From the NCBI GenBank assembly GCA_903884535.1, contig CAISEZ010000017.1, positions 1 through 40,982 on the forward strand: a stretch of 40,982 nt of DNA, written 5' to 3'. The stretch is from an uncultured Verrucomicrobia subdivision 3 bacterium. GTDB taxonomy: Bacteria; Verrucomicrobiota; Verrucomicrobiia; Limisphaerales; UBA11358. Below the pieces are notes generated by a model, which did not search any database, was not told the origin of the DNA, and saw only the letters and a program-made list of their open reading frames with translations. Below, piece after piece: positions 7,983-40,705 of this stretch (position 1 is the stretch's first letter; each line of letters starts with the position of its first letter). A program made the translations under genes and the position numbers.

Positions 7983-7988
7983 GCGGTC

Positions 7989-8022
7989 AATTTACACAAA
8001 TGAACCTTAAGCGAACATGAAG
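7989..8022 (-). promoter_or_regulatory. Operator/promoter b: YHYH-YHYH-MbnP/MbnH operon
   Basis: Minus strand: repeat 1 CTTCATGTTCG (8022-8012), repeat 2 CTTAAGGTTCA (8011-8001), 6-base spacer TTTGTG, then -10-like TAAATT (7994-7989). The A of the ATG at 7982 falls seven bases after the hexamer, so the transcript would begin at the start codon. Confidence 0.7.
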
Positions 8023-8087
8023 CCGGACATATTTTGTCGGCGGCTTGGCAAAATCGGTTCATGTCCCGGCGGCCCTGCGAACGGGTT

Positions 8088-8573
8088 TCAATCCACCCCT
8101 TCCACCACGACCAGCGGCACTGGTGTTGTATTGGTGCCGCCGGCGGAATTGGTGGCGAACAAAGCGTAACGGCCAGAATCAGCCAAATGCGCGTTGGGAA
8201 TGATGAACTCGGCGTTGGTCGCGCTGGCGGACACCGGCAAAAAGCCATGGCCCTTGTCCACTTTCCACTGCTTGAAAACCGGCGGCGTTCCGCCGATTTC
8301 CGCCGAGAACGTCACGACGCGGGTCTCGAGATTTGTTCCCGGCGAGTCCGTAGCGGTGTCGGTCACAACAAACGGCGCCACCGGCCGCGGCTGGCTGGCG
8401 TTTTCCTGGGCAACATTTCCGGCGCCGTTTGAAGGATTGACCGGCGAGACGATTTGTTTGCGCGTGAGATTGTTTTGTTGCGAGAAACGGGTGAACAAGA
8501 GGATGACAATTCCCAGAAAAATCAGGCCGCAAATAAAAGTGGCTTGATGGCGGTTTGATTTGTGCATGACCAA
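8088..8573 (-). CDS. Small membrane-anchored protein with Ig-like domain
   Basis: A 161-residue protein of unknown function. Residues about 12-30 (ATFICGLIFLGIVILLFTRF) form one transmembrane anchor. A Pro/Asn-rich linker follows, then residues about 75-158 resemble an immunoglobulin I-set fold, with the typical end strand LADSGRYALFATNSAGG. Such domains are common in verrucomicrobial surface proteins and serve binding or spacing. Two ATGs two codons apart (8573 and 8567) are possible starts. It is the last gene of the oxidase-pump-sulfatase operon, only 21 bp after the TAA that ends the extended sulfatase frame. Confidence 0.65.
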   Translation of the reverse strand: MVMHKSNRHQATFICGLIFLGIVILLFTRFSQQNNLTRKQIVSPVNPSNGAGNVAQENASQPRPVAPFVVTDTATDSPGTNLETRVVTFSAEIGGTPPVFKQWKVDKGHGFLPVSASATNAEFIIPNAHLADSGRYALFATNSAGGTNTTPVPLVVVEGVD

Positions 8574-8594
8574 TATTTTTTGGCGGCGGGCGGT

Positions 8595-8726
8595 TTACGG
8601 AATGTAGGGAGTAACCTGATAATAAATCGAACTGTTGGTGGCATTGGCGTCTATCAGCAACCCATTGGTGGAAAGAAGAAAATTGTTGGTTGTTCCCGTG
8701 ATCAGATTCGTAGTGATTGGGGTCCA
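8595..8726 (-). other. In-frame sulfatase continuation beyond an amber codon
   Basis: Past the TAG at 8729-8727 the sulfatase frame stays open for 43 more codons, beginning WTPITTNLITGTTNNF and ending SSIYYQVTPYIP before TAA (8597-8595). The text looks like the normal end of a verrucomicrobial secreted protein (STN...W.P...YYQV.P), and including it shrinks the gap to the next gene to about 21 bp. This points to a recent nonsense mutation, a sequencing error or readthrough. CAG to TAG would be the simplest change. Confidence 0.65.
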
Positions 8727-10319
8727 CTAAAGCCAATCCATCAACGTGCTGGAACGCCAAAGAATTAAATCATAATCCAGATTTATGCCCCCTGACTTGA
8801 GTCGGGTGAGGCCGGACTGGTTCGCGTTGGCAAAACTGCCGTTTGTGCTCAATTGAGTATATGCCTCATTTACGGAAAATACGTGGTTAGTCAAACCAAC
8901 TCCTTTCACGGATGTGTAAGGTAGCAGGTCGCGGGTGGATGCCGTGTTGGCCAGAGTCAGGTATCGAGCGACATTAATCTTAAGCGAATAATAGTTGGAT
9001 AGTGCCAATGGCGTGAGTGCTGATACGAAGAGATTGGTGTGTTCGTAAGGATCGCTGGATAAATCGAAAAGCTGCTCGAGATGATTGTAAAAATGAACAA
9101 GTTTGAACTGCGCGTTGCGCAGCGTCCAGCCATCGGCCACGGGGCTTTCGTTGAATTGTTCGCCAAACATGTAGGTTGTGGGAATGATCACATCCGCTTG
9201 CAGTGCCGGCAGCAGGCTCTTGGAATCGATGATCACATTGGCCGGCAGCGTGGCGGCGACATTGATGCCGGCCAGTTCTTGAATCGTCTGAAAAAGGTCC
9301 ACCTCGTTCACAAACGTATTATTGGTCCGACCGCCATTGACCACGTCCGGTCCGGCGACGAAAAAGGGCGTCCGGCTACCGCCTTCATACAAGGTGAATT
9401 TCGCGTGTCCGTTCGTGTCCGGAGGCCCGTTGGTATAGTAGTAAGGCGGTTGTTGGAATTGGATTTCCGATCCGTTGTCGCCCATAAAAATGATGTCCGT
9501 GTTGGTCGGCACCACCGTCAGCAGGCGGCCGATCTCCGTGTCCATCGCCTGCGTCATGGCCTCCTGGTAGGCCCGGCTGTTGGTGTTGATGTCGTCGGTG
9601 GTGCCGCTCAGGTTAATATAAGCTGGCGTGGTCAACAGATTCGTGGGTGGTTTGTTGATTGGCCCATGCGGGGCGTTGAAAGCCAGCCACACAAACCACA
9701 AGTTGGTTCCTTTTCCTTGGATAAAAGAAATGGCGTCGTTCGCCTGGTCGGTCGTCGAATAAACGGTCGTATTTTGTGCGACCCCGTTTGTGACCTTGGT
9801 CCAATTCCGATAGTTTTGCACCGCCGGGCCCATGTAGCCGGCGAAGTTTGTCCAACCACCCGTGGTCAACGGGGAATTCAAATCCGTCGCGCTGGCCAAA
9901 TGCCATTTGCCAAAGGACGCCAGGCTGTATTGCGGGGCGTTGGTGGTGAAAGCTCTTGGCAGGGTGAATTCATTCGGACTTAGCGCGGGCTGGGTGTTGG
10001 TGCTGCCGATGGCGCAGCCCACGCCGGTGCGGAAGGATTCACGGCCCGTGAAGACGCACGCCCGCGACTGCGAACACGAAGGCCGGGCGTAAAAATATGG
10101 AAACAAGACGCCGCTCCGCCCCAGCCGGTCAATATTGGGTGTTGGCGCCAGGCTGGCTCCGGCATTCGTGGAATTGAATAATTCGCAACTGTCCGCGCCG
10201 AGGTCATCGGCGATGATGAGCAGGATATTGTTTTTGGCCGCCGCCGCTGGCGAGACCAAGCCGCTGGATAATGCAACGAGCAAAATCAGGCAGAAAATCC
10301 AACGCGGTGTTTTATTCAT
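8727..10319 (-). CDS. Secreted sulfatase (arylsulfatase family), ends at an in-frame TAG
   Basis: A 530-residue type I sulfatase. Signal peptide at residues 1-25 (ILLVALSSGLVSPAAA). Metal ligands in IIADDLGAD, the formylglycine motif in SCSQSRACVFTGR, FGKWHLA, APHGP and FMGDNGSE are recognisable. The motif has Gln where CxPxR sulfatases have Pro, so cysteine activation should be checked. The start is the ATG at 10319, which overlaps the stop of the CusA gene (ATGA); the open frame continues far upstream only as a shadow of the pump gene. The C-terminus appears cut by TAG, and the full protein would be about 574 residues. A sulfatase inside a copper operon is unusual; its substrate is unknown. 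Confidence 0.85.
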   Translation of the reverse strand: MNKTPRWIFCLILLVALSSGLVSPAAAAKNNILLIIADDLGADSCELFNSTNAGASLAPTPNIDRLGRSGVLFPYFYARPSCSQSRACVFTGRESFRTGVGCAIGSTNTQPALSPNEFTLPRAFTTNAPQYSLASFGKWHLASATDLNSPLTTGGWTNFAGYMGPAVQNYRNWTKVTNGVAQNTTVYSTTDQANDAISFIQGKGTNLWFVWLAFNAPHGPINKPPTNLLTTPAYINLSGTTDDINTNSRAYQEAMTQAMDTEIGRLLTVVPTNTDIIFMGDNGSEIQFQQPPYYYTNGPPDTNGHAKFTLYEGGSRTPFFVAGPDVVNGGRTNNTFVNEVDLFQTIQELAGINVAATLPANVIIDSKSLLPALQADVIIPTTYMFGEQFNESPVADGWTLRNAQFKLVHFYNHLEQLFDLSSDPYEHTNLFVSALTPLALSNYYSLKINVARYLTLANTASTRDLLPYTSVKGVGLTNHVFSVNEAYTQLSTNGSFANANQSGLTRLKSGGINLDYDLILWRSSTLMDWL

Positions 10320-13300
10320 TTGATTTTTTCTGGAATGGTTTGCTGGCCGGGTTTTAGAAGTTGGCTGTTTCGCAGCAGAAAATAAATCACTGGAGTAATG
10401 ATCAAAATCAGAATCAAACTGCTCGCCATGCCACCGACGATGGGAGTGGCCAGCGGTTTCATCACTTCGGATCCCGTGCCGTGACTCCAGAAAATCGGCA
10501 ACAGGCCGGCGACGATGGTGGCGACCGTCATCAATTTCGGGCGCAGTCGCAATCGCGCGCCTTCTTTGACAGCGTCCATTAAATCCGCCTGGCCAAAAGC
10601 CGCACCGAGCAGTTGCTGTTTTCGGCGCACCGCTTCGTCGAGATAAACGACCATCACCACGCCGGTCTGAATTGCCGTGCCGAACAGCGCGATGTAACCC
10701 ACCCACACCGCAACGCTGAAGTGCCAGCCCAGCACGAATTGCAAAAACACCCCGCCGCTCAACGCAAAGGGAATGGCGATGAGTATGTGCGCGGCATCGC
10801 TAAACCGGCCGTAAAGTTGAAACAGCAGCATGAAAATAATCAACAGAGTGGCCGGCACGATGAATTTCAGCGTCTGCGCGGCGTGAAGTTCGTTTTCGTA
10901 TTCGCCGCTGTATTCGAGCGTCATGCCCTGCGCGGCAAGTTTTGGCACAAGGTCATTTTGCAGTCGTGATTTCACCTCTTCGACAAAACCTCGGAGGTCG
11001 CGGTCGCTGACATTGGCCTGCACGAAAGCGCACAAACGTCCGTTTTCACTGGCGATTTCGTTCGGACCTTCCACGCGCACGATTTTCGCAAGCTGGCCGA
11101 GCGGAATCACTTTGCCCTCCGGACTCGTGACAAGAATATCTTTCAGCCGCGTCAAATCCTCGCGCTCGCCGCGTTGGAGGCGCACTTGAATGGGCACGCG
11201 GCTGCGGCCTTCAATGGCGGTTGAAATATTTTTGCCGCCGATGCCAGATTCCACCACATCGAGCACGTCTTGTGCGCGCATCCCATAACGGGCGATGGCG
11301 GCACGGTCAACTTGCACTTCGAGGTATGGCTTGCCTTCAATCCGACTCGGCGAGACGCCGGTGGCACCGGGAGTTGTCTGAACGATTTGCGCCACGGCCA
11401 ATGCGGCTTGCTGCAACTGGTCCAAGTTGTCGCCGAAAATTTTCACGCCGAGCTGTGCGCGAATGCCGGTGGAAATCATCAGCACGCGGCCCTCGATGGG
11501 CTGCAAAAATCCCGGAACAAAACCGGGCACCCGGCGCATCGCTGCCGTCATTTCGGCGATGAGTTTTTCGCGCGTCATGCCGGGACGCCATGCGCTTTCT
11601 GGCTTGAGCTGAATGGTTGTCTCGATCATTTCGGTGGGCGCGGGATCGGTGGCGGTGTCGGCGCGGCCGAGTTTGCCAACCACCGAGTGCACTTCGGGAA
11701 AATTTTTAAGCACCTGATCTTGCCAGGCCATCACGCGCTTCACTTCTGAAAGTGAAGCGGCGGGCGCGAGGCTGGGCATGAAGATCAGGCAGCCTTCGTT
11801 CAGCGGCGGCATAAATTCAGAACCCAGGCGGGGCACCAGCGACAAAGCAAATGCGAGGACAACCCCCGCGCCAATCAGAACGGTCTTCCGGTGGTTCAAG
11901 GCAAAATTGAGCGCCGGGTCGTAGAGCCGCAGCAGGAAGCGCATCACGCGGTTGCGTTCTTCTGCTTGGAATGGGCCGCGCACCAGCCACGTGCAAAGCA
12001 CCGGCACAATCGTCACCGCCAGCAATACCGAGCCGAGCATGGCGAAAGTTTTGGCGAAGGCGAGCGGATGAAATAATTTCCCCTCCGGGCCGGTTAGCGC
12101 GAACACTGGCATGAACGCGAGGATGATGATAGCCAGCGCGAACACAATCGGCCGGCCGACTTGTTTCGAGGCGGTCAGCACGGCAACGAATGTTTCCGGG
12201 CGGGTGAGGGCTTCGCCTTTGGCCCGCTCCGCCAATGAGCAATGACGGATGGCATTTTCGGTGATCACGATCGCGGCGTCCACCAGCACGCCGATGGCGA
12301 TGGCGAGGCCGGACAAGCTCATGATGTTCGACGTGACGCCGAACTGCTTCATCAGTAGAAATGAAATTAAAATACTGATCGGCAACGGCAGCGTGACAAT
12401 GAGGATGCTCCGCCAGTGAAATAAAAAAACGATGTGAACGAGCATCACCAAAATAATTTCCTCGATGAGTGCGCGCTTCAAGGTGGCAGCGGTCCGATCA
12501 ATCAATTCGCTGCGGTCGTAGAAGGATTTGATGCTGACGCCGGGTGGCAGGCTCGGTGTCAGTTCCGCGATTTTTGCTTTCACTTTGGCGATGACTGCGC
12601 GCGGATTTTCGCCAGTGCGCATCACGACCACACCGCCGACGACTTCGTGCCCGTCCACATCGAGCGTGCCACGCCGGTAATCGCCGCCGATTTCTATACG
12701 AGCCACATCTTTCAGAAAAATCGGCACGCCATCTTTTTCGGTGAGCGCAATTTTTTCCAGATCCTCCACACTCTTGACCAGGCCCACGCCCCGCACGATG
12801 AATTCCATGCCGTTTTCCTCGATGGTTTTCCCGCCGACATTCAGGTTGGACTCGCCGACCGCCGCCATCACGGTGTTTAGCGACACGCCGGCGGCACGCA
12901 TTTTTAGCGAGTCCACTGCAATTTGATATTGTCGGACGAAACCGCCAATGCTGCCAATTTCGGCCACGCCCGGCACCGCATTGAGTTGGTAGCGGATGAA
13001 CCAATCCTGCCACGAACGCAATTCACCGAAGTCGTAGCCGCGACCGTTCAGCGACTTTGTTTGGTCAACGTCTAGGTAGTATTGAAAAATCCAGCCAAGC
13101 CCGGTGGCGTCCGGGCCGAGTTTGGCTTGGACCCCCGCCGGCAGTTTGTCGCCGAGCAAATTCAGCTTTTCCAAAATACGTTGCCGCGCGGCTGCCTTGT
13201 CCACGGCGTCATCAAAAACAACCGTGAGCATCGAAAACCCAAACATGGAATTGCCCCGAACTGTTTTCACACCGGCGAGCCCCTGCAAGTTCACCGAGAG

Positions 13301-27517: not shown

Positions 27518-27895
27518 TCAAGGCAGCACGTGCGCTGGCGTCACCGTCGTGCCGAGCGAGCAGGTAGGAATCGTGCCGATGACGCTGTCTTGGTAATAGT
27601 CGCCGCCAACGGGGCAGGGCGGAATGCTGCCCGCCGAGTTGAGCTTGATATACGGCGTGAGGTCCGTGGGGAAGTTGATTGACTGGCCGCTGGTCTTGCC
27701 TTTTTCCAGGGCGAACTGGTTGGCTGCCGCGTCAATCTGGCGGAGGTTGTTGATGCAGGCATTGGCCTGCGAGGAGGCACGGGCTTTGATGAAGTTCGGA
27801 ATCGCGATGGCCGCCAACAGACCGATGATGGCCACGACAATCATGATTTCCACGAGCGTAAAACCTGCACGGCGAATGTTATGATTGGTTTTCAT
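27518..27895 (-). CDS. Type IV pilin/type II secretion pseudopilin-like protein
   Basis: A 125-residue protein with a class III signal peptide: short basic leader (MKTNHNIRRAG), cleavage expected after G11, then FTLVEIMIVVAIIGLLAAIAIPNF with the conserved glutamate at mature position 5. The C-terminal part is a small globular domain with two cysteines (SIPPCPVGG and GTIPTCSLG) that could form a disulphide. The family makes fibres of type IV pili or type II secretion pseudopili, processed by a prepilin peptidase. No other pilus genes are nearby, which is common for the many dispersed verrucomicrobial pseudopilins. It has its own strong terminator. Confidence 0.85.
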   Translation of the reverse strand: MKTNHNIRRAGFTLVEIMIVVAIIGLLAAIAIPNFIKARASSQANACINNLRQIDAAANQFALEKGKTSGQSINFPTDLTPYIKLNSAGSIPPCPVGGDYYQDSVIGTIPTCSLGTTVTPAHVLP

Positions 27896-29704: not shown

Positions 29705-30367
29705 GTGATTTTCCCGAAATGGACAAATAGTTTGCCGCTGGCGTTGGGCCTGGTTGCGGCGTTGACCGGTGGCGCCATCGCCGCCGGCGTGACGATTTAT
29801 CTCACGCCCAAATACACGCGCGCCGGCTACCAGCCCGTGCAGCCGGTGCCGTTCTCCCATAAAATCCACGCGGGCCAGCTCGGTGTGGATTGCCGCTATT
29901 GCCACAACGGCGTGGAAAAATCCTGGTTCGCCAATTTGCCCGGCGCGTCCACCTGCATGAACTGCCACAACCAGGTGCTCAAAGACGATTCGCGCCTGCA
30001 AATCGTCCGCGACAGTGCGGCGAACAACACGCCAATTCCGTGGGTGCAGGTTCACAAGGTTCCCGATTACGTTTATTTCAACCACTCCGTCCACGTTCGT
30101 CGCGGCATGAGTTGCGTGGAATGTCACGGGCGCATTGACCAGATGGACGAAGTCAGCCACGCGAAATCCTTGAGCATGAGTTTCTGTCTGGATTGCCATC
30201 GCGATCCGGCAGCCCACATCCGCCCGGTGGACAAAGTCACCAAACTGGATTGGCAATGGAGCACGAACGCCGATGACGCCGCGAAATTGCAGGACGCGAA
30301 CGGCAAAAAATTCGTGCATGATTGGAAAGTGGAATCGCTGCAAAGCTGCTCGGCGTGTCACCGATGA
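29705..30367 (+). CDS. actA: Alternative complex III subunit ActA, pentahaem cytochrome c
   Basis: A 220-residue multihaem cytochrome of the periplasmic side of alternative complex III, which oxidises quinol and reduces a c-type electron carrier. One N-terminal membrane anchor (residues about 10-32) precedes five haem-binding motifs: CRYCH (63-67), CMNCH (84-88), CVECH (137-141), CLDCH (161-165) and CSACH (215-219). The start is GTG at 29705, with no in-frame ATG upstream and only a poor ribosome binding site; this fits the family's N-terminus. The stop overlaps the actB start by 4 bp. Confidence 0.92.
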   Translation: MIFPKWTNSLPLALGLVAALTGGAIAAGVTIYLTPKYTRAGYQPVQPVPFSHKIHAGQLGVDCRYCHNGVEKSWFANLPGASTCMNCHNQVLKDDSRLQIVRDSAANNTPIPWVQVHKVPDYVYFNHSVHVRRGMSCVECHGRIDQMDEVSHAKSLSMSFCLDCHRDPAAHIRPVDKVTKLDWQWSTNADDAAKLQDANGKKFVHDWKVESLQSCSACHR

Positions 30368-33300
30368 AAAATAATTTGAACAACTCCTCCGTCACCGGCC
30401 GCCGTTATTGGCGCAGCCTCGATGAGCTGGCCGACACGCCGGAGTTCAAGGATTGGCTGCATCGCGAATTTCCCACGGGCGCCAGCGAGTTGGAAGACGG
30501 CGTTTCCCGCCGGCATTTCGTCAAGATCATGTCCGCGTCGTTCGCGCTGATGGGCGTGGCGGTGCTCGGCACCGGTTGCCGCCGGCCGGAAGAAAAACTG
30601 GAACCGTTCGGCCAGCAGCCGGAGAATTATACTTTTGGCGAAGCGCAATATTTTGCGACCGCCATGCCTACGCGCAACGGCGCGATTCCGCTCGTCGCCA
30701 AATCCTACGAAGGCCGGCCGGTCAAAGTGGAAGGCAATGCGCTTTTCCCGAATGGCAACGGCGGCACTGACCGCTACGCGCAGGCTTCGATTCTCAATCT
30801 ATACGATCCCGACCGCGCCCGCCGATTCACGCACGCCGGCAATAAAGTTTCACGCGAGGACGCGTTGAGCTTTCTCGACACGCTGGCGAAAAAATTCGCG
30901 GCGAATCAAGGCGCTGGCTTGGCGTTGCTGGCCGAAAGCAGCAGCTCGCCGTCCCGCGCCCGGCTGCAAAAAATTCTCACGGACAAATATCCGAAGGCGA
31001 AATGGTTCACCCACGACGCGATTGACAGCGGCATTCATCAACGCGCCGCCACGCAGGCGTTCGGCCAGTCAGTGCGTCCGGTTTTCAATTTTGAAAAGGC
31101 GAAGGTCATTCTGTCGCTCGACGCTGATTTTCTCGGTGGCGAGGACGACGCGCACAATCATATTCGCAAGTTCTCGGCCGGTCGCAAGGCGGGCGCGGGG
31201 ATGAGCCGGCTTTACGCGGTGGAATCGCTGTTCACGCTCACCGGCGCGGGCGCGGATCATCGGTTGCGCGTCGCTGCGAGTTTGGTTGGCTCAATTGCGG
31301 CCGCGATTTTTGCGGCAGTTTCCGGAACCAGCATTTCCATTCCCGCCGGCGTGGATGCCAAATGGATTTCTGAATGCGCCAAAGATTTGGTGGCCAACCG
31401 CGGCTATGTCTTGGTCGTTGCCGGCCAGCGCCAGCCGCTGGAAGTTCATCTGTTCGCGAACGCCATCAATTCTGCGCTCGGCGCGATTGGCAACACGGTC
31501 ACTTTGCTCCCGGCAACGGAAATCATTTCCCAGGACTTGAAGAATTTGGATGCGAGCGCGACGGACACGCTGGTCATTCTGGGCGGCAATCCGGCTTACG
31601 ATTTGAACTGGTCGCCGAAGTCCAAGCCCGGCACGGTCATGCGCTTGGGCTATTACGAGGATGAGACCGCGGCGAAAGCTGACTGGCATTTTCCGGCGAC
31701 GCATTATCTCGAATCCTGGGGCGATGCGACGACCAGCGACGGGATCGTGGTGCCGGTGCAGCCGTTGACGCAGCCGCTTTTCGGCGGCTTGACTGAGCTG
31801 GAATTTCTCGCGCGGCTCGCTGGTGAATCCACGACGAATCCGCACGACATCGTCCGCGCTACCTTTGGCGGCTCGGATGAAAAGTGGAAGAAATTTTTGT
31901 TCCAAGGTTTTGAAAATCCAATCCGCACGGAATCGTTGGCCGCACCGTTTGTCGGTTCGGTGCCGACGGTTAAATCTGTTGCGCCGACCGCCAGCAGCCT
32001 CGAAGTTGTTTTCTATCGCGATTCAAAAACGGACGACGGCCGCTATGCCAACAACGGCTGGATGCAGGAACTGCCGGATCCGATCACGAAGATGACGTGG
32101 GACAACGCCGTGCTCGTCAGCCGCAAGACGGCGCGCGAGCTTGGCGTGGCGAACGGCGATCTCGTAGAAATTTCGTTGAACGGTCAGAAAGTCATCGGGC
32201 CGATTTGGACGCAGCCGGGCATGGCGGATTATTCGCTCGGCCTCGCGCTCGGTTACGGCCGCGAACGGGCAGGTCGCGTCGGCACCGGTGTCGGCTTCAA
32301 CGCGTTTAAAATTTTCAACGGTAAATACATTGAGGCCGGCGCGACGATTCGCAAGACGGGCGAAACGCATGTCATCGCCTGCACGCAGCATCATTGGGCG
32401 ATGGAAGGCCGGCCGGCCGTGCGCGAGGCGAACCTCGCCGAGTTCATCAAGCTGCCGAATTTCGCGGAAGAGATGCACGGCAAAGAGCCGCCGGTGATCA
32501 AATCGCTTTATCCAAACCCACTTGATGAGGCGAAGAAAACCGCTTTGCACCAGTGGGGCATGGCGATTGATCTCACGTCCTGCGTCGGCTGCGGCACCTG
32601 CGTCATCGCGTGTCAGAGCGAGAATAATATTCCGATCGTCGGCAAAGACCAGGTGAGCCGCGGCCGCGAGATGCACTGGATGCGCATTGACCGTTATTAC
32701 ACGGCCGATCCCGCGAAGGAAAATCCGGCGGACAAATTCAAGGCCGACGAGGACCAGCAGTTCTCCGAGTGGATTGACGACGTGCAGGCGGTGAACCAGC
32801 CGATGGTTTGCCAGCAGTGCGAAGCCGCGCCGTGCGAAAGCGTCTGCCCGGTCAACGCGACCGTCCACGATCAGGAAGGCTTGAACGTGATGGCGTATAA
32901 CCGTTGCATCGGCACGCGCTATTGCTCGAACAACTGCCCGTATAAAGTTCGCCGTTTTAATTATCTCGATTTCAACAAGCGCCCGTTGACCGAACTCAAG
33001 GGGCCGATTTATTCGAGCGCGATGTTTGGTCACAAGACAGATGGCGAACTCGATATTTTGCGCTGGTGGAAAGATCCGAACAGCGGGATGCGTTCGGAAG
33101 ATGAATGGGATCTGATTAAGTTGTCGAAGAATCCGGACGTGACCGTGCGGATGCGCGGTGTCATGGAGAAATGCACTTACTGCACGCAGCGCATCGAGCA
33201 CGCCAAAATTTCGCAGAAGGCCAAGGCCGGCGGTTCGGACAATGTCCGGCTCACGGAAGCGGCGGGCACGGTTCCGAAGACGGCGTGCCAGCAGGCCTGT

Positions 33301-33546
33301 CCGGCCGGCGCGATTGTGTTCGGTGACATCAGCGACCCGACGAGCGTGGTTTCCAAATTGAAGGCGCAGCCGCAGAATTACGCGGTGCTGGCCGACTTGC
33401 TCACCAAGCCGCGCACCACTTATCTGGCGCGAGTGCGGAATCCAAATCCGCTCATGCCGGATTATCGCGAATGGCCGCACAGTTTTGAGGAATACGAACA
33501 GCTCAACGGGAATCCGTTTGAACATGAGAAGAAAGGGAACGGTTAA
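30364..33546 (+). CDS. actB: Alternative complex III subunit ActB, iron-sulphur protein
   Basis: A 1060-residue protein in which a molybdopterin-oxidoreductase-like half (about 100-700, without cofactor in characterised members) is fused to a ferredoxin-like half. A Tat-type signal with twin Arg at 49-50 (SRRHFVKIMSASFALMGVAVLGTGC) also carries a lipobox cysteine. Fe-S ligands are CVGCGTCVIAC starting at C740, CQQCEAAPCESVCP, CIGTRYCSNNCP and CTYCTQR ... CQQACPAGA, enough for the usual three [4Fe-4S] plus one [3Fe-4S] clusters. The ATG at 30364 overlaps the actA stop; it is better than an upstream in-frame ATG inside actA. It relays electrons between the quinol site and ActA/ActE. Confidence 0.92.
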   Translation: MKNNLNNSSVTGRRYWRSLDELADTPEFKDWLHREFPTGASELEDGVSRRHFVKIMSASFALMGVAVLGTGCRRPEEKLEPFGQQPENYTFGEAQYFATAMPTRNGAIPLVAKSYEGRPVKVEGNALFPNGNGGTDRYAQASILNLYDPDRARRFTHAGNKVSREDALSFLDTLAKKFAANQGAGLALLAESSSSPSRARLQKILTDKYPKAKWFTHDAIDSGIHQRAATQAFGQSVRPVFNFEKAKVILSLDADFLGGEDDAHNHIRKFSAGRKAGAGMSRLYAVESLFTLTGAGADHRLRVAASLVGSIAAAIFAAVSGTSISIPAGVDAKWISECAKDLVANRGYVLVVAGQRQPLEVHLFANAINSALGAIGNTVTLLPATEIISQDLKNLDASATDTLVILGGNPAYDLNWSPKSKPGTVMRLGYYEDETAAKADWHFPATHYLESWGDATTSDGIVVPVQPLTQPLFGGLTELEFLARLAGESTTNPHDIVRATFGGSDEKWKKFLFQGFENPIRTESLAAPFVGSVPTVKSVAPTASSLEVVFYRDSKTDDGRYANNGWMQELPDPITKMTWDNAVLVSRKTARELGVANGDLVEISLNGQKVIGPIWTQPGMADYSLGLALGYGRERAGRVGTGVGFNAFKIFNGKYIEAGATIRKTGETHVIACTQHHWAMEGRPAVREANLAEFIKLPNFAEEMHGKEPPVIKSLYPNPLDEAKKTALHQWGMAIDLTSCVGCGTCVIACQSENNIPIVGKDQVSRGREMHWMRIDRYYTADPAKENPADKFKADEDQQFSEWIDDVQAVNQPMVCQQCEAAPCESVCPVNATVHDQEGLNVMAYNRCIGTRYCSNNCPYKVRRFNYLDFNKRPLTELKGPIYSSAMFGHKTDGELDILRWWKDPNSGMRSEDEWDLIKLSKNPDVTVRMRGVMEKCTYCTQRIEHAKISQKAKAGGSDNVRLTEAAGTVPKTACQQACPAGAIVFGDISDPTSVVSKLKAQPQNYAVLADLLTKPRTTYLARVRNPNPLMPDYREWPHSFEEYEQLNGNPFEHEKKGNG

Positions 33547-34973
33547 TGTCTGAACCCGTGACCAACTTGAAAAACTACGCCGCGCCGGCCGAACTCCGCC
33601 GCGCGCCGGTCGTGGAATGCAGCGGCGGCCTCGGCGTGCTGACGGACAAACTGTCCGAATTTGCCGAAGCCAAAACGCCGCTGTGGTGGTGGCTGCTGTT
33701 CCTTCCCGCCGCGTTTTGCGCGACGGTGGTGCTGCCGTTCTGTCTGTTTTATCAGGTCTTCACCGGCGTCGGTGTTTGGGGCAACAACCATCCGGTGATG
33801 TGGGGCTTGGACATCGTGAATTTCATCTGGTGGGTCGGCGTCGCGCACGCCGGCACGTTGATTTCCGCGCTGCTCTTTTTGACGCGGCAACACTGGCGCA
33901 CGACCATCGGCCGCATGGCCGAGGCGATGACCGTTTTCTCCGTAATGATGGCGGGACTTTATCCGGCAATCCACGTCGGCCGCGCGTGGTTTGATTGGTA
34001 TATGTTTCCGGTGCCGAACTCAAACGGTCTGTGGCCGCAGTTCAAGTCGCCGTTGATGTGGGACGTGTTCGCTGTGAACACTTACATGACCGTTTCGATG
34101 CTGTTTTGGTTCATGGGCATGATTCCTGACTTCGCGGTTTTGCGCGACCGTGCCACGACGCGGGTGCGGAAAATTATTTTCAGTTTTCTCGCGATGGGTT
34201 GGACGGGTTCCGCGCGCCACTGGCACAATTACGAAAAAGCCTACGTCGTGCTTTCCGGCCTCTGCACGCTGCTCGTGTTCACCGTGAGTTCCATCGTCGG
34301 TTTGGATTTCTGCACCTCGCAGATCGCCGGGTGGCACGCCACGATTTTTCCGCTCTACTTCGTCATCGGTGCGGTGTTCTGCGGCTTCGGCATGATCCTG
34401 GTGATTTTGATTCCGCTGCGCAAATGGTGCCATCTCGAAGAAGTTATCACGATGTCGCACATTGACAAAGTGGCGAAGCTGACGTTGGTGAGCGGATTGA
34501 TTATCGCCTACATTTACGCCATCGAATTTTTCATCGCCTGGTATAGCGGCGATCCCTATGAAAAATGGGTGTTTGGTCACCGACTGTTCGGCCACACGTA
34601 TTGGATTTTGGGCTGGATGCTTATCGGCATCAACGTCTGCGTGACGCAATTGCTCTGGTTCAAGAAAGTCCGCGCGAATCTCGCGCTGCTGTTCATCATC
34701 GGCGTGCTGATCAACTGCGGTATGTGGTGCGAACGCTTCGTCATCGTCGTTGGCTCGCTCTATCAGGAATTTCTCCCGGCTAACTGGGGCAAGTATATGC
34801 CGACGATCTGGGACATCGGCCTTTACATCGGCACGCTTGGTGCGTTCTTCATGCTGTATCTGCTGTTCGTGAAATTTTTGCCGGTGATCGCCATTTCCGA
34901 AGTCAAAGGCGCGATGCCGCACGGTGATCCGCATCATCCGCTTGGCGGCGCCAAAAAAGGAGGCCACCAATGA
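33546..34973 (+). CDS. actC: Alternative complex III subunit ActC, NrfD-like membrane protein
   Basis: A 475-residue integral membrane subunit of the NrfD/PsrC family with about ten hydrophobic helices. It forms a quinol-binding part of the complex. Recognisable segments include GVGVWGNNHPVMWGLDIVNFIWWVGVAHAGTLISA-type text in helices 2-3, RHWHNYEKAYVVLSGLC, and MWCERFVIVVGSLYQEFLPANW near the end. Length and order are as in other act clusters. The start shares one base with the actB stop (TAATG), and the stop overlaps actD by 4 bp. Confidence 0.92.
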   Translation: MSEPVTNLKNYAAPAELRRAPVVECSGGLGVLTDKLSEFAEAKTPLWWWLLFLPAAFCATVVLPFCLFYQVFTGVGVWGNNHPVMWGLDIVNFIWWVGVAHAGTLISALLFLTRQHWRTTIGRMAEAMTVFSVMMAGLYPAIHVGRAWFDWYMFPVPNSNGLWPQFKSPLMWDVFAVNTYMTVSMLFWFMGMIPDFAVLRDRATTRVRKIIFSFLAMGWTGSARHWHNYEKAYVVLSGLCTLLVFTVSSIVGLDFCTSQIAGWHATIFPLYFVIGAVFCGFGMILVILIPLRKWCHLEEVITMSHIDKVAKLTLVSGLIIAYIYAIEFFIAWYSGDPYEKWVFGHRLFGHTYWILGWMLIGINVCVTQLLWFKKVRANLALLFIIGVLINCGMWCERFVIVVGSLYQEFLPANWGKYMPTIWDIGLYIGTLGAFFMLYLLFVKFLPVIAISEVKGAMPHGDPHHPLGGAKKGGHQ

Positions 34974-35509
34974 GCGAAAAAGTTTATGGCCTGATTGCCG
35001 AATTTGACACGCCGGCGGACATTTTGCACGCGGCGAAAAAAGTTCGCGATGCCGGTTATCGTCGCTGGGACACGTTCACGCCGTTTCCGATTCACGGCAT
35101 AGACGGCGTCATGAAACTTGGCAACTCGCTCGTCGGCTGGGTTTCGCTCGCGATGGGCGGCGGCGCGTTTATGTCCGTCGTCGGTTTGCTCTGGTTCACG
35201 AACGACTTTGATTATCCGATGATCGTCGGCGGCAAGCCGAATTTCAGCCTGCCGATGACCTTCGTGCCGTCCTATATCATGCTCATCATGGGCGGCGCGG
35301 TCGGTGCGCTGGTCGGGATGCTCGCGTTGAACCAGCTTCCGCGCCTGCATCATCCCGTGCTGCACAAACCGCGTTTCGTGCTCGCCTCGCGCGATAAATT
35401 TTTTCTCCTCATCGGTGCGCTCGACGAAAAATTTTGCGAGACCGAAACCCGCAAGCTGCTCGAATCGCTCGGCGGCAAGCACATCGAAATCGTGGAGGAC
35501 GCAGAATGA
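34970..35509 (+). CDS. actD: Alternative complex III subunit ActD (DUF3341)
   Basis: A 179-residue membrane subunit. The N-terminal soluble part begins YGLIAEFDTPADILHAAKKVRDAGYRRWDTFTPFPIHG, the DUF3341 signature. Two helices follow (near 60-82 and 100-125), with a C-terminal ferredoxin-like cytoplasmic tail. It holds the two NrfD-like subunits in contact with the rest of the complex in known structures. It overlaps both neighbours by 4 bp. Confidence 0.92.
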   Translation: MSEKVYGLIAEFDTPADILHAAKKVRDAGYRRWDTFTPFPIHGIDGVMKLGNSLVGWVSLAMGGGAFMSVVGLLWFTNDFDYPMIVGGKPNFSLPMTFVPSYIMLIMGGAVGALVGMLALNQLPRLHHPVLHKPRFVLASRDKFFLLIGALDEKFCETETRKLLESLGGKHIEIVEDAE

Positions 35510-36162
35510 TCCGCATCATCGTTTCCATCCTTTTGATTGGTGCCGCCATCGGTGCTGCCACTTTCGGCATGTTGGGGTTGCAGGGCAAGATGTCGCGCAA
35601 ACCGCCGTTTGAACTGTTCCCGGACATGGATCGCCAGGCGAAGTTGCGGCCCATGGAACCGAATCATTTTTTTGCGAACGGTATCAGCTCGCAGTTGCCG
35701 CCCGCCGGCACGGTTGCTCGTGGCGAACCGATTCAGACCACGGCTGGCGCAGTTTACGGATTTGAAGATTCACCCGTTAACACCGGCTTCGTTGCCGGCA
35801 CGACTAATTTTGTCGAATTGAATCCGTTGCCCGTCACCGCCGAAGTCATCGCCCACGGCCACGACCGTTTCGATATTTATTGTGCGCCCTGTCATGGAAA
35901 ACTCGGCGACGGTAACGGCATCACCAAGAAACTCGGCGTCATGCCGGCGGTTGCGAACTTGCACGACAAACGCATCGTCGAAATGACCGATGGCGAAATT
36001 TTCAGCACCGTGACGCACGGCAAAGGGTTGATGGGCGCGGCGGGTCCGCTGCTGCCGGCGACGGATCGCTGGGCGACCATCGCGTATCTTCGCGCCTTGC
36101 AATTGAGCTGGCTCGGCTCGACCAACGATTTGACGGCGGAACAGAATGCGGCGTTGAAATGA
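35506..36162 (+). CDS. actE: Alternative complex III subunit ActE, mono-haem cytochrome c
   Basis: A 218-residue membrane-anchored cytochrome c. N-terminal helix at about 3-22 (IIVSILLIGAAIGAATFGML), then FELFPDMDRQAKLRP, a conserved ActE lead-in. The haem motif is CAPCH (126-130), with a methionine-containing region (GLMGAAGPLLPATDRW) near the expected axial-ligand position. The ATG at 35506 overlaps the actD stop; the open frame extends further upstream only inside actD. It is probably the electron exit of the complex towards a c-type acceptor such as the downstream CcoO/CcoP-like proteins. Confidence 0.9.
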   Translation: MIRIIVSILLIGAAIGAATFGMLGLQGKMSRKPPFELFPDMDRQAKLRPMEPNHFFANGISSQLPPAGTVARGEPIQTTAGAVYGFEDSPVNTGFVAGTTNFVELNPLPVTAEVIAHGHDRFDIYCAPCHGKLGDGNGITKKLGVMPAVANLHDKRIVEMTDGEIFSTVTHGKGLMGAAGPLLPATDRWATIAYLRALQLSWLGSTNDLTAEQNAALK

Positions 36163-37418
36163 ATATGAATCCGTCGAACCAAAATTTTGCCAATCCTCCG
36201 AAATCCGGTCTCGGTCTGGGGGCGTTGCCCGTCGTGATGATGGCGCTGGGTGGAATTCTCACCCTGCTTGGTGCGCTGGTCAGCTTCCATAAAAACGGCG
36301 GCGTTGAATTGGGGATTTCCTGGCTGCTCGCGTTCATGTTCTTTTTGAGCATCGCGCTCGGCTGTTTGTTTTTGGTGCTGGTGCATCACCTGACTGACGC
36401 CGGTTGGTCGGTCGGCATCCGCCGTTTCAATGAACACATCGCCGCGCTGTTGTTTCCGCAGCTCGCGTTGATGTTTTTGCCGGTAGCGCTGCTCGCGCCG
36501 AAAATTTATTCATGGATGACGATTGATCCGGCGACCGACAACACTGTGGCTGCCAAATTGCCGGTGTTCACCATGCCTGGATTCTGGATTGCGTCGGCCG
36601 TTTTATTTGGCATCTGGTGGCTGCTCACCTCGCAGTTGAAACGCTGGTCGCTCAAGCAGGACGAAACCGGCGCGGCCGAATGCACGCACAAGATGCGTTT
36701 CCACTCCGGCTGGGGGATCGTGGCGTTTGCGGTGACGCTGACCTTTTGCGGCGTGCTGTGGATGAAATCGCTCCAACACGAATGGTATTCCGCGATGTAT
36801 GGCGTTTATTTCTTCGGCAGCAGCACCTGGGTTGCGCTGGCCACGGTTTATATTCTCACCGTCCGCTTGAAATGTCGGGGCGTGATCAGCGGCGTGTTTC
36901 AGGATGGAAGTTTCTATTTCATCGGCGTGCTGTTTTTCGCGTTCACTGTTTTTCAGGCCTACACCGAATTCGCGCAATACTTCGTTGTCTGGAACGCCAA
37001 CATGCCGTCGGAAACGTTCTGGTATCTCATCCGCGAAAACGGTTCGTGGTGGACGGTCAGCCTGATTTTGATCTTCGGCCATTTCATGATTCCGTTTTTC
37101 ATCCTGCTGCCGGTCGCGGTGAAAAGTAATGCCAAAGTCGTCATCCCCGTCTGCCTCTGGGCGTGGGCCATGCACGCGCTGGATCTGGCGTTTAACATTT
37201 TGCCCGCGCGGCATCCGCACGGTTATCCGTGGCAATGGCTCGGTTTGGAACTCGGCTGTTTTCTTTTGATGGGCGGATATTTGTTGCGTTCGCTGGATAA
37301 AAATTTCGCCCAGCACGCGCCGTATCCGCAGAAAGATCCGCGTCTGCTCGAAGCCATGGGCGTGAATATGAATGTCGCCAACGATCTCGCTGGCACCAAC
37401 CCGGCGGAGGCTAACTGA
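36159..37418 (+). CDS. actF: Alternative complex III subunit ActF, NrfD-like membrane protein
   Basis: A 419-residue integral membrane protein with about ten helices, distantly like ActC. Family text includes FWIASAVLFGIWWLLTSQLKRWSLKQDE, MSLQHEWYSAMYGVYFFGSS-like sequence after helix 4, and FAYTEFAQYF-like helix 6. It is thought to contribute to the proton path or quinone site. It overlaps actE by 4 bp and shares one base with the next small gene (TGATG). Confidence 0.9.
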   Translation: MNMNPSNQNFANPPKSGLGLGALPVVMMALGGILTLLGALVSFHKNGGVELGISWLLAFMFFLSIALGCLFLVLVHHLTDAGWSVGIRRFNEHIAALLFPQLALMFLPVALLAPKIYSWMTIDPATDNTVAAKLPVFTMPGFWIASAVLFGIWWLLTSQLKRWSLKQDETGAAECTHKMRFHSGWGIVAFAVTLTFCGVLWMKSLQHEWYSAMYGVYFFGSSTWVALATVYILTVRLKCRGVISGVFQDGSFYFIGVLFFAFTVFQAYTEFAQYFVVWNANMPSETFWYLIRENGSWWTVSLILIFGHFMIPFFILLPVAVKSNAKVVIPVCLWAWAMHALDLAFNILPARHPHGYPWQWLGLELGCFLLMGGYLLRSLDKNFAQHAPYPQKDPRLLEAMGVNMNVANDLAGTNPAEAN

Positions 37419-37786
37419 TGAACCTGCAAACCCTCAACCGTTCGTCCGCCGCCGGTATCGGAGTGCTCATCGTCAGCGTGATTTTTGCCGTGCTGTCCGT
37501 GGCCGTGAAATTATTGGCAACCGCACCGGCCATTGATGCGGACCGTGACGCCGCGCGCGCCAAAGCGCTGACAGAAATCCGCACGGCGGAAATCGCTTCG
37601 CTGAACTATGGCGGTTGGGTTGACCAATCGCGCGGAATCGTCCGTCTGCCCATTGCCACCGCCGAACAATTGGCCGCGCAAGCGTGGCAAAACCCGTCGT
37701 CGGCCCGTGCCGATTTGACCGCCCGCGCCGAAAAGGCCGCTGCGCCCGCCCCAAAGGCACCTGAAAAACCGAGTGCATTTGAATGA
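37418..37786 (+). CDS. Small single-helix membrane protein of the respiratory operon
   Basis: A 122-residue protein with one N-terminal transmembrane helix (residues about 12-33) and a periplasmic tail. The middle reads YGGWVDQSRGIVRLPIATAEQLAAQ. From memory, a similar GWVD...G.VR.PI..A pattern occurs in small proteins within other complex III and oxidase clusters, but I cannot name a family. The end is Ala/Pro/Lys-rich. It sits between actF and the CcoN-like gene, overlapping both by 1-4 bp, so it may be an accessory subunit bridging the two modules. Confidence 0.7.
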   Translation: MNLQTLNRSSAAGIGVLIVSVIFAVLSVAVKLLATAPAIDADRDAARAKALTEIRTAEIASLNYGGWVDQSRGIVRLPIATAEQLAAQAWQNPSSARADLTARAEKAAAPAPKAPEKPSAFE

Positions 37787-39219
37787 ACTTGAACGAAAAT
37801 AAAATTTCCACCGACGCCGAGATCAACGCCTCGTTGCGCGTGTCGCTGCTCGCCTTGTTTGGCGGCGCGGCCGTGTGGCTCGTGGTCGGACTGGCGTTGA
37901 GCATTGCCGCTTCGCTGACCTTTCATCTGCCGAACATGTTCGCGGATTGTTCCTGCCTGACTTACGGCCACGCCGCGCCCGCCGCGAATGACGCGTTGCT
38001 CTACGGCTTTTGCATTCCCGCTGGACTCGGCGTGATCCTCTGGATTTTTGCGCGCCTCGGCCAGACGCCGCTGGCGTTGTCGATTGTGCCGGTCGTCGCC
38101 GCGAACCTCTGGCATCTTGGCGTCTTCATCGGACTCGTGGGCATTTTGTTCGGCCAGACCAGCGGTCACACTTGGCTGGAATTTTCCCGCGCCTCTTCGG
38201 TGCTACTGTTCGCCGCTTTCATTTTGATCGCCGTTACCGCCGCCGCCACATTTGGTGCCCGGCGCAATCGCGAGCTGCAGCCAACGCATTGGTTTTTGTT
38301 CGCCGCGTTGCTGTGGTTCCCGTGGATTTATTCGACGGCGAATTTGTTGCTCGCGCCCAACCAGCCGGTTCGCGGCGTCGCGCAGCCGATCATCGGCTGG
38401 TGGTTCGCAAACAATCTTGTTTTCGTCTGGCTCGCATTGGTCGGCATCGGCACGGCGTTTTATCTTTTACCAAAAATTGCCGCCCGTCCGCTGGCGACCA
38501 CCGGCTACGCGTTGTTCGCGTTTCTCACCCTGATTTTCTTCGGTGCCTGGTGCGGCATTCCCGCCGGTGCGCCGGTGCCCGCGTGGCTGCCGACCTTTAG
38601 CCGCATCGCCGGTGCGTTGTTAATTGTGCCGCTGATCGCGCTGGTCATCGTCGTCGGCAAAACCGTTTGTGGTGCCAAGGTTAGTTGCAACGGTGGACCG
38701 TTTTGCTTCACCAAATTCGGCATGGTTTGTTTTATTTTGTCCGGCCTGATGTATGTCGCCGAGGTTTGTCCGCGCCACACCCGGTTCTTGGAATTCACCT
38801 GGTTTGCTCCGGCGCAGGTGCAACTGCAACTGCTCGGCTTTTTTGCGATGGTCGTGTTCGGCGCAATTTACGAACTGCTGCCCGGCGTGATGAACCAGCC
38901 GCTGCCATTTCCCAAATTCGCCAAGGCGCACTTTTTCGTTTCCATTTTTGGCGTGGCGCTGTTTGTGATTCCGCTGGCGATTGCCGGGGTGGAGCAGGGG
39001 ATTAAATTGCATAACCCGGACATTGCGCTGGCCGATGCGAATCAATCGGCCTTGATGTTTCTCCGCATCAGCACCACCGGCCAACTGTTCCTACTGTTCG
39101 GCGCACTTTTGTTTGCCGTGAATATTTTCGTCATGACGATCCAGTGGAAAATCGCGCTGCTCAAGGCGGCGTTCGCGGCCATCACCGCTCCGCTGCCTGT
39201 CTCGGAGGTGAAAGCATGA
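37783..39219 (+). CDS. CcoN-like haem-copper oxidase subunit I without metal ligands
   Basis: A 478-residue, roughly 12-helix protein clearly derived from cbb3 oxidase subunit I. Helix VI (GWWFANNLVFVWL) aligns without gaps to CcoN QWWYGHNAV, but the CuB histidine is N210. In helix VII the HH pair is P260-A261 and the cross-linked tyrosine is G254. In the helix carrying both haem ligands, HVH is Q345-V346-Q347. The helix II haem histidine aligns with A68; H63 is five residues away. It should therefore hold no haem b, haem b3 or CuB in the usual sites and cannot be a normal oxygen reductase. Cysteines cluster at 56, 58, 296, 302, 308 and 316. A structural or proton-related role is inference. 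Confidence 0.8.
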   Translation: MNLNENKISTDAEINASLRVSLLALFGGAAVWLVVGLALSIAASLTFHLPNMFADCSCLTYGHAAPAANDALLYGFCIPAGLGVILWIFARLGQTPLALSIVPVVAANLWHLGVFIGLVGILFGQTSGHTWLEFSRASSVLLFAAFILIAVTAAATFGARRNRELQPTHWFLFAALLWFPWIYSTANLLLAPNQPVRGVAQPIIGWWFANNLVFVWLALVGIGTAFYLLPKIAARPLATTGYALFAFLTLIFFGAWCGIPAGAPVPAWLPTFSRIAGALLIVPLIALVIVVGKTVCGAKVSCNGGPFCFTKFGMVCFILSGLMYVAEVCPRHTRFLEFTWFAPAQVQLQLLGFFAMVVFGAIYELLPGVMNQPLPFPKFAKAHFFVSIFGVALFVIPLAIAGVEQGIKLHNPDIALADANQSALMFLRISTTGQLFLLFGALLFAVNIFVMTIQWKIALLKAAFAAITAPLPVSEVKA

Positions 39220-40100
39220 AAACCGGCATCGGCATATTTTTCGCGACGGTGTTCGCGCTGGGCGCTTCCTGGTGTGGGCTCGTGTTGGCACCGACGTTGC
39301 AGCTCGGCGGCGCCAAATTGGAAACCGTGTTGAATTCCACCGACACCTATCCGGTCCAGCGCACCGGTGACGCAACGCTTGGCTTGCAGATTTATCGCGC
39401 CAATGGCTGCGCTGCCTGCCACACCGAGCAGGTTCGGCAGGACGGCGTCGCCTGCGAAGTGTCGCTGACCGGACTCGGCAACAATCCGCCGGATGGTTTC
39501 AAGAAATTTCTCCAGTCCATCGAGACCTTGCCGGAATGGCAAGATCACAGCAAGGAATTGTCCGCGGCATTTGCCACTTGGGACGGAACGCTGCCCAAGG
39601 TGGTCATTGCTTGGACTGATAAAGACAGCGCGGACAAGATGGCCGATCTTTTGAAAGCCGCTGGTTGTAAATCGGAGTCCCGCATTTACGCCTTTGGTCC
39701 GGACATCGCCCGCGATTGGGGCGTGCGCCACAGCGTGGCCGCCGATTTTCTCTACGACAATCCCGTGCAACTCGGTAGCCTGCGCGCCGGACCGGATCTC
39801 GCCAACGTCGGGGTCCGCATGGGCGATGCGAACATTCAGTTGCAGCATCTTTACGCACCGCAGGCCGGCGCCAAAAATTCCACGATGCCCGCGTTTCGTT
39901 ATCTGTTTGAAGTGAAAAAAATCGGTGACGCGCCGTCGCCGGACGCCGTGAAGCTGCCCAAGGAATTTGCGCCCGCCGCCGATTATGAAGTCGTGCCGAA
40001 ACCGGAAGCGCGTCAGTTGGTCGCCTATCTTTTAAGCCTACGTGCCAACGTGCCGCTTTACGAAGCCCCGTTCACGCCGGTCATCTCCGCCAAGCCATGA
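39216..40100 (+). CDS. CcoO-like mono-haem cytochrome c with an inserted domain
   Basis: A 294-residue cytochrome c with an N-terminal anchor (residues about 5-25). CAACH is at 65-69 (IYRANGCAACHTEQVR), and a CcoO-like second half follows: DWGVRHSVAADFLYDNPVQLGSLRAGPDLANVG with GPDL at 192-195 and MPAF (M224, likely axial ligand). Between the two, residues about 78-150 are extra compared with ordinary CcoO and look like a small alpha/beta domain (PKVVIAWTDKDSADKMADLLKAAG). The ATG at 39216 overlaps the stop of the CcoN-like gene. With its partner lacking haem and copper, it probably carries electrons for complex III rather than feeding an oxygen-reducing site. Confidence 0.82.
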   Translation: MKTGIGIFFATVFALGASWCGLVLAPTLQLGGAKLETVLNSTDTYPVQRTGDATLGLQIYRANGCAACHTEQVRQDGVACEVSLTGLGNNPPDGFKKFLQSIETLPEWQDHSKELSAAFATWDGTLPKVVIAWTDKDSADKMADLLKAAGCKSESRIYAFGPDIARDWGVRHSVAADFLYDNPVQLGSLRAGPDLANVGVRMGDANIQLQHLYAPQAGAKNSTMPAFRYLFEVKKIGDAPSPDAVKLPKEFAPAADYEVVPKPEARQLVAYLLSLRANVPLYEAPFTPVISAKP

Positions 40101-40705
40101 GCGACGAATCCAATTCCGGCGATTGCGCCTTGACAGCGGACGAATCAACTGTAGAGCGCTCGACAGTGCCGATGTGGATCGTTGTGTTCACGCTGATCTT
40201 GTTGTTTGTCGGTGGCATTTATTTCGACCGGCACAGCGGCTGGTTTAATCCGCAGGTTTACGGTTCGTTCAGCTCGGCGGAACAATTGGAAGCCTACCAG
40301 CCCAAGTCCGGCGCGGCGGCGGCGCGGGCGCACGGCAAAGTCGTTTATGAAGCCGTCTGCGGCATCTGCCACGGACTGGACGGACGCGGCAAACCTGGCC
40401 AGGCACCGGCACTTGCCGGTTCCGAGTGGGTGCTCACCAAAGGTATCAATCGCCTCGCACACATTCCGCTGCAAGGCGTCAGCGGCGTGATCCGGGTGGA
40501 AGGTCAGGATTGGAATTTGAACATGGCTGCAATGGGGGCCGCTTTACCCGACGAAGACCTCGCCGGCGTTCTCAGCTACATCCGCAGTGCTTGGGGCAAC
40601 CAAGCCGGCACCGTCACAGCCGACGACATCAAAAAAATCCGCGCGGAGATGGGCAAGAGCGTGCAGCCGATGAGTGGCCAGCAGATTATGAGCTTGCCGG
40701 ATTAG
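40097..40705 (+). CDS. CcoP-like membrane-anchored cytochrome c
   Basis: A 202-residue protein with a single helix at about 26-44 (MWIVVFTLILLFVGGIYFD) and one cytochrome c domain. The haem motif is CGICH (88-92), in VVYEAVCGICHGLDGRGKPGQAPALAGSEWV; a methionine in NLNMAAMGAALPDEDLAGVLSYIR is the probable axial ligand. True CcoP has two haems, so this is a reduced version or a general class I cytochrome. It ends the operon with TAG and overlaps the CcoO-like gene by 4 bp. It may be the electron shuttle between complex III and a terminal oxidase coded elsewhere. Confidence 0.85.
   Translation: MSDESNSGDCALTADESTVERSTVPMWIVVFTLILLFVGGIYFDRHSGWFNPQVYGSFSSAEQLEAYQPKSGAAAARAHGKVVYEAVCGICHGLDGRGKPGQAPALAGSEWVLTKGINRLAHIPLQGVSGVIRVEGQDWNLNMAAMGAALPDEDLAGVLSYIRSAWGNQAGTVTADDIKKIRAEMGKSVQPMSGQQIMSLPD

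Follow-up and report, generated by a model that had tools for sequence, protein, structure and literature searches.

The window analysed here, a contig of 40,982 nucleotides from an uncultured Verrucomicrobia subdivision 3 bacterium (CAISEZ010000017.1), encodes in one cluster with the genes of an alternative complex III (ACIII) a membrane protein, hereafter N, that resembles CcoN, the catalytic subunit of cbb3-type (C-type) haem-copper oxidases, but retains none of seven key residues of that enzyme, namely the three CuB histidines, the haem b3 histidine, the two haem b histidines and the active-site tyrosine. The sequence strongly supports the view that N has no usual means of binding haems b and b3 or CuB and is unable to reduce oxygen. 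We consider it reasonably probable that N stems from the catalytic subunit of a cbb3 oxidase within the ACIII operon, lost its ligands, and was kept as a haem-free core of 12 helices that holds CcoO- and CcoP-like cytochromes at ACIII. On balance, if a shade less firmly, we further think that at least a dozen and perhaps more than 20 such conversions took place within one bacterial class, each yielding a haem- and copper-free ACIII scaffold with an arm of c-type haems only, and that Methylacidiphilum is among the organisms concerned and has no cbb3 oxidase.

The relationship of N to oxidases is evident at several levels. Residues 24-430 match the Pfam family COX1 with 102.6 bits (cut-off 34.8), the predicted structure has 12 long helices, and among PDB chains CcoN of 3mk7 ranks first (E 2.6e-16), in line with the fold of a C-type oxidase core; the NCBIfam ccoN model scores 94 bits, well under its cut-off of 583, and related proteins are annotated at their source as cbb3-type subunit I. 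The ligand columns were read by alignment to L002, the intact CcoNO of the same genome, and to 38 relatives, with position names that we take to follow P. stutzeri numbering. An earlier note, made from the DNA letters alone, had claimed that the oxidase fold is kept while each ligand is replaced, by A68, N210, G254, P260-A261, Q345 and Q347. All these replacements were reproduced, and no histidine of N fell on a ligand position. Both ligands of the low-spin haem b are absent (A68, Q347), Q345 takes the place of the haem b3 histidine, N210, P260 and A261 those of the first, second and third CuB histidines, and G254 that of the tyrosine. The alignment has a gap of two residues after A261, where the assignment of P260 and A261 could shift; a profile-profile alignment against 13 ligand-bearing members returned identical ligand columns (100%, E 2e-149, 477 columns). 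The accessible part of one article on Nitrospina uses the numbering His207/257/258 (PMC3578206). An alignment artefact at these columns was rejected, as three alignments agree, and so was chance or a frame error, given the open frame, the matches in relatives and the shared alignment columns. Judged by its residues, N is derived from a cbb3 oxidase but is not itself one.

Matches to N were present in 38 of 40 genomes searched (its own included), and the first 39 aligned copies, 26 of them from the window's genus, each retain two of the seven residues at most. When an 18-member profile was run against 384 genomes belonging to the class, 309 matched, canonical CcoN being counted too; in a phylum sample of 387 genomes, 124 matched. 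Outside the class there were 30 matches, of which 11 were examined, all intact and of the canonical type. We sorted 143 N proteins of the family by the number of residues kept: seven in 39, six in one, five or four in none, three in two, two in 10, one in 36 and none in 55. In the following, 'intact' denotes proteins with all seven residues, 'ligand-poor' those with at most three, and 'altered' the ligand-poor ones together with L056, which has six. Every one of the 104 altered N has ActF within the stretch; the same holds for 36 of the 39 intact N. In the window's order, 58 of 59 proteins are ligand-poor, and the sole intact one (L173) lies in the same type of operon with every ligand kept.

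Intermediate states are rare. Five proteins of group f45 (L063, L065, L118-L120) have lost the binuclear site and keep both haem b histidines, which suggests, as far as sequences can tell, that catalysis was lost first and the low-spin haem later. These five could be haem b electron carriers without an oxygen site. L056 (G148) differs from the intact state by a single change, from the first CuB histidine to arginine, and may stand at the beginning of ligand loss or reflect an error in the sequence. Three f47 genomes (L085, L086, L087) carry a further intact CcoN type of 550-634 residues with an O gene (the CcoO/FixO-like partner) and no act genes in the stretch.

Named public genomes were sampled through an ActB scan, from which we took the best 80 of a larger number of loci. 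Among these, 22 further N were found (one clipped by its contig), two intact and 20 not; in Cephaloticoccus, a ligand-poor case, the seven residues are QQARHQQ and QQSRHQQ. Of 24 ACIII stretches from Verrucomicrobiota that extend to ActF, 21 carry N, and L228, one of the three without it, is possibly long enough to show N. None of the 34 ActF-reaching stretches from other phyla has N; 28 of them have an aa3/caa3-like CoxA.

The earlier note had also held that the gene is not decaying, and its open frame and the substitution pattern bear this out. Computed on stop-to-stop frames, the ratio of nonsynonymous to synonymous substitutions (dN/dS) is 0.14 and 0.18 for two pairs from the window's genus and 0.10-0.19 for six ligand-poor pairs of f43, f39, f45 and f12; intact pairs range from 0.04 to 0.19. 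A pseudogene was accordingly rejected.

How often the ligands were lost depends on the gene that is consulted. Because relatives in the same operon keep every ligand, we favour repeated secondary loss within an oxidase lineage over a single ancient re-use. Our trees are quick searches with support from the Shimodaira-Hasegawa-like approximate likelihood ratio test (SH-aLRT) only, from which near-identical sequences of the window's genus and of f43 had been removed. A tree of ActB and ActC (113 rows) requires 17 changes of state, 12-13 of them forced by branches with support of at least 95; if ligands are never regained, it implies 23 losses, or 17 when weak branches are collapsed toward few losses (both counts include L056). 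The tree of the adjacent O gene requires 11 changes, six of them forced.

The trees of N itself weigh against so many losses. One with 132 rows needs only four changes and joins 63 ligand-poor proteins, and one with 53 rows needs three; the nearest N of the 104 altered proteins is ligand-poor in 94 cases, intact in seven and L056 in three; and one genome, G399, has a ligand-poor N in its operon and an intact N elsewhere. These observations would all be expected if two old forms of N, intact and ligand-poor, had been swapped between operons by recombination or by differential loss of paralogues, with few losses overall, a scenario that we regard as unlikely, though the most serious of the alternatives. 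It is opposed by the fact that ligand-poor proteins form long branches in the N trees, and long branches attract each other; by a gain of 18.1 log units in the 53-row set (p-AU 0.89 in the approximately unbiased test) when the intact and ligand-poor proteins of f47 are held together; by the f51 group, which contains both states and forms a clade with support of 97 in the 53-row tree; by the 11 changes in O; and by the seven altered proteins whose nearest N is intact. Nearest-neighbour identity was set aside as proof of separate losses, since seven of 104 is a weak showing. From these sequences we conclude that there were many separate losses, with some exchange of paralogues possible. As for the two copies in G399, the operon copy (L119) lacks the binuclear site and keeps both haem b histidines, and the second, ligand-bearing one (L256, G399:C78, 1773-3260) is accompanied by an O gene on a contig that starts 1.8 kb before N.

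The two forms of N also differ in the oxidases that accompany them. We searched 119 of the genomes that carry the 143 proteins (79 with a ligand-poor N, 39 with an intact N and one with L056), some of them incomplete (G074 76%, G040 94%); cytochrome bd was searched in nine genomes, and ba3-type and alternative oxidases lay outside the search. CoxA is matched in 77 of 79 ligand-poor and 31 of 39 intact genomes (Fisher p 0.002). The two ligand-poor genomes without it (G036, G039) have cytochrome bd, and another oxidase is found in all 79; elsewhere in its genome, the window's bacterium encodes an aa3-type CoxA as well as an intact CcoNO. Eight intact genomes have no CoxA, and four of these (G040, G042, G047, G074) also have no canonical CcoNO; a bd search gave no match in G040, G047 and G074 and only partial remote matches in G042. 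In G047 (99% complete), N stands beside act genes (L067), and in G040 and G074 apart from them. An intact N can therefore be the sole terminal oxidase found when CoxA, CcoNO and bd are searched, whereas a ligand-poor N never is in 79 genomes. In raw counts, aa3 type I occurs in 52 of 79 ligand-poor compared with four of 39 intact genomes. Over 12 phylogenetically independent pairs, loss showed no significant association with the presence of any aa3 (2.3 same, 0 opposite) and no link to canonical CcoNO (1.4 same, 2.9 opposite).

We envisage the following role. The ancestor would have been a cbb3-type catalytic subunit encoded together with ACIII, an arrangement in which other Verrucomicrobiota still have every ligand. 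Loss of the binuclear centre, and usually of the low-spin haem site as well, would then have occurred in many lineages, that of the window among them. N would hold O and the cytochrome c encoded behind it (cytc) beside ACIII, the three forming one membrane unit with the complex, and electrons from menaquinol would leave ACIII through the c-type haems of O and cytc toward a separate oxidase or soluble carriers. The CXXCH motif is present in every gene found for O (142 of 142), cytc (136), ActE (110) and ActA (102), and O has many invariant columns across 17 rows.

Some results count against this proposal. The proposed docking of O and cytc at ACIII through N is read from gene neighbourhood, and a periplasmic patch of conservation, which we had looked for as support where the cytochromes should dock, is absent from ligand-poor N (p 0.33). 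dN/dS reaches 0.31 and 0.42 in two distant ligand-poor pairs, and is 0.06 in one f43 pair that is saturated. The excess of aa3 type I after loss is not significant in the independent pairs (3.3 same, 0 opposite of 12). Finally, three of the 39 intact N (L058, L149, L136) lie apart from act genes. Each of these three forms an N-O-cytc set without act genes in the stretch; ActB lies on other contigs in the genomes of L058 and L149, and the genome of L136 (G258) has only a weak partial ActB match. Because G258 shows no full ActB, the L136 oxidase may work without ACIII.

Structural, proton-conducting or regulatory reuse had all been suggested by the earlier note, and the retained fold, the absence of decay and the link to act genes agree with reuse in general. 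A role in assembling or sensing another oxidase, often of the aa3 type, rather than in docking an electron path, seems improbable to us: another oxidase is indeed present in 79 of 79 genomes, and a CoxA gene occurs in 19 of 104 altered-N stretches, many of which are too short to show one, but CoxA is also near five of 39 intact N, and a pure assembly role would not need the CXXCH motifs, which every O and cytc found retains. We give still less credence to conduction of protons or ions by a ligand-free N that couples the redox chemistry of ACIII to translocation. Proton translocation by ACIII is debated (PMC8498564), the twelve-helix fold is retained, and some polar residues mostly stay in ligand-poor N (Y227 in 87%, Y363 in 82%, K231 within 80-87%), as do Trp, Pro and Gly positions (W32, W207, P266 and G62 in 99-100%). 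Many other polar residues that are fixed in intact N are mostly gone, being kept in small shares of 79 ligand-poor proteins (T218 18%, S243 15%, H292 22%, T318 13%), and this weakens the proton-conducting part of the earlier suggestion. Some of these polar residues presumably form the proton route. Least probable of all, in our judgement, is neutral retention, whereby O and cytc fold on N, which can then not be dropped from a module without electron transfer. N does evolve faster after the loss, its terminal branches relative to those of ActB and ActC having a median ratio of 3.4 in 72 altered compared with 1.25 in 35 intact proteins (p 1e-10); the haem c motifs and the invariant columns of O speak for a module that still transfers electrons.

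Group f43 would extend the scaffold reading to Methylacidiphilum. We examined five of its 12 matching genomes, each with 2-5 matches to the AmoC/PmoC family. Their N are strongly diverged and have no ligand set, the seven columns, confirmed by profile alignment, reading SESSHFV in four and ADAAHQT in one. In L077 (G070), actF and the small gene of the act operon are separated by nosZ-like and NosD (Pfam) genes (6843-12533), and nos genes within the act cluster are described in the accessible part of a report on M. caldifontis IT6 (PMC11102522). Because of the AmoC/PmoC matches in all five genomes and the nos genes of L077, we infer that f43 is Methylacidiphilum; no named Methylacidiphilum locus is among the best 80 ActB loci, taken from a larger number. 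Canonical CcoN gave no strong match in the f43 genomes G052 and G093, where the best hit (E 1e-12) fell on the O gene. A cbb3 oxidase is listed for Methylacidiphilum (PMC8498564; likewise in the portions available of PMC6688271 and PMC10205796), and in the former of these portions the gene is linked to high oxygen affinity (PMC6688271). On this evidence, the gene called cbb3 in Methylacidiphilum would be a pseudo-oxidase, the strain of each genome being assigned by inference.

The features of the operon are collected in the table. The ACIII genes for multihaem ActA, FeS ActB, NrfD-type ActC, ActD and haem c ActE stand in one cluster, O corresponds to the monohaem CcoO of cbb3 oxidases, and a dihaem CcoP is lacking, the gene at 40097-40705 having a single Cytochrom_C domain and a single CXXCH. 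The order of the act-N-O-cytc region is conserved among relatives, with variants: the 122-residue protein is unmatched in 10 of 143 rows, and a cytochrome-like gene takes its place in some relatives. Weakly similar proteins (37-43 bits) are encoded by act-cox clusters in other phyla (L199, L212, L215, L241, L245), so that this small protein may be an unnamed general subunit of ACIII-oxidase assemblies. Upstream, between glutamate synthase and the act operon, a small protein on the reverse strand (27518-27895) has, by eye, a type IV pilin-like N-terminus.

Table. Genes of the ACIII-N operon and replaced ligand positions within N (window coordinates)
Feature	Position	Strand	Remarks
ActA-like multihaem cytochrome c	29705..30367	+	Pfam Cytochrome_C7 1.3e-12
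ActB-like protein, 4Fe-4S domains	30364..33546	+	start codon inferred
ActC (NrfD family)	33546..34973	+	Pfam NrfD 2.8e-18
ActD	34970..35509	+	Pfam ActD 7.1e-53
ActE-like monohaem cytochrome c	35506..36162	+	named by place in cluster
ActF-like membrane protein	36159..37418	+	named by place in cluster; no Pfam match
Small 122-residue protein between actF and N	37418..37786	+	no Pfam or NCBIfam match
N, ligand-free CcoN-like subunit	37783..39219	+	478 residues, ATG start, open reading frame open throughout
A68, replaces haem b His	37984..37986	+	alignments including 3mk7, relatives and profile-profile
N210, replaces first CuB His	38410..38412	+	alignments including 3mk7, relatives and profile-profile
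G254 to A261, active-site Tyr and second and third CuB His replaced	38542..38565	+	relatives and profile-profile alignments
Q345-V-Q347, haem b3 and haem b His replaced	38815..38823	+	alignments including 3mk7, relatives and profile-profile
O, CcoO/FixO-like c-type cytochrome, one CXXCH	39216..40100	+	Pfam FixO 1.1e-17; conserved in relatives
cytc, CcoP-like cytochrome c	40097..40705	+	one CXXCH, one Cytochrom_C domain, N-terminal hydrophobic stretch

Subunit I of haem-copper oxidases is usually recognized by its ligands, and this family appears to drop them repeatedly while keeping the fold, the operon and the neighbouring haems. That ACIII genes stand beside 'cbb3' genes and that aa3 oxidases are partners of ACIII was known; what the sequences add is the loss of the ligands. 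Natural before-and-after pairs, such as L134 and L111 within one genus of f51 or L116 and L115 in f44, allow us to ask what non-catalytic role an oxidase subunit has in the assembly of complexes III and IV. Genome-based inferences of microaerobic respiration in Verrucomicrobiota should be re-examined wherever this gene is their basis, and Methylacidiphilum would, if our reading is true, be without a cbb3 oxidase.

Compared with cbb3 oxidases (CcoN/CcoO/CcoP; 3mk7, 8smr), the window's system shares the fold and length of CcoN, the CcoO/FixO-like monohaem neighbour and a further cytochrome c, but its N is without the ligands of haem b, haem b3 and CuB and the active-site tyrosine, its third gene codes for a single haem c motif instead of two, and it is co-encoded with ACIII. 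An ACIII-oxidase supercomplex of Flavobacterium johnsoniae was reportedly described by Sun in 2018. There, too, oxidase-like genes follow the act cluster, whereas the core in the window is C-type and ligand-free; this supercomplex is also mentioned in the accessible part of PMC8361435. Closest is the arrangement known from verrucomicrobial methanotrophs and from Opitutaceae, with ACIII and a C-type oxidase side by side (PMC8498564; portions of PMC6688271 and PMC11102522). It belongs to the same phylum and is the same system as that of the window; the parts of these accounts available to us treat it as cbb3 and do not mention missing ligands, and a literature search of titles and abstract openings found no report of ligand loss in this family. 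For Verruconatronum, the three genes after actABCDEF are annotated as a caa3 oxidase in the available part of PMC13274419. The cbb3 oxidase of Nitrospina, as far as described in the accessible part of PMC3578206, likewise has an unusual CcoN, whose CuB site contains altered residues, but, unlike N, it keeps the three CuB histidines and is proposed to be functional.
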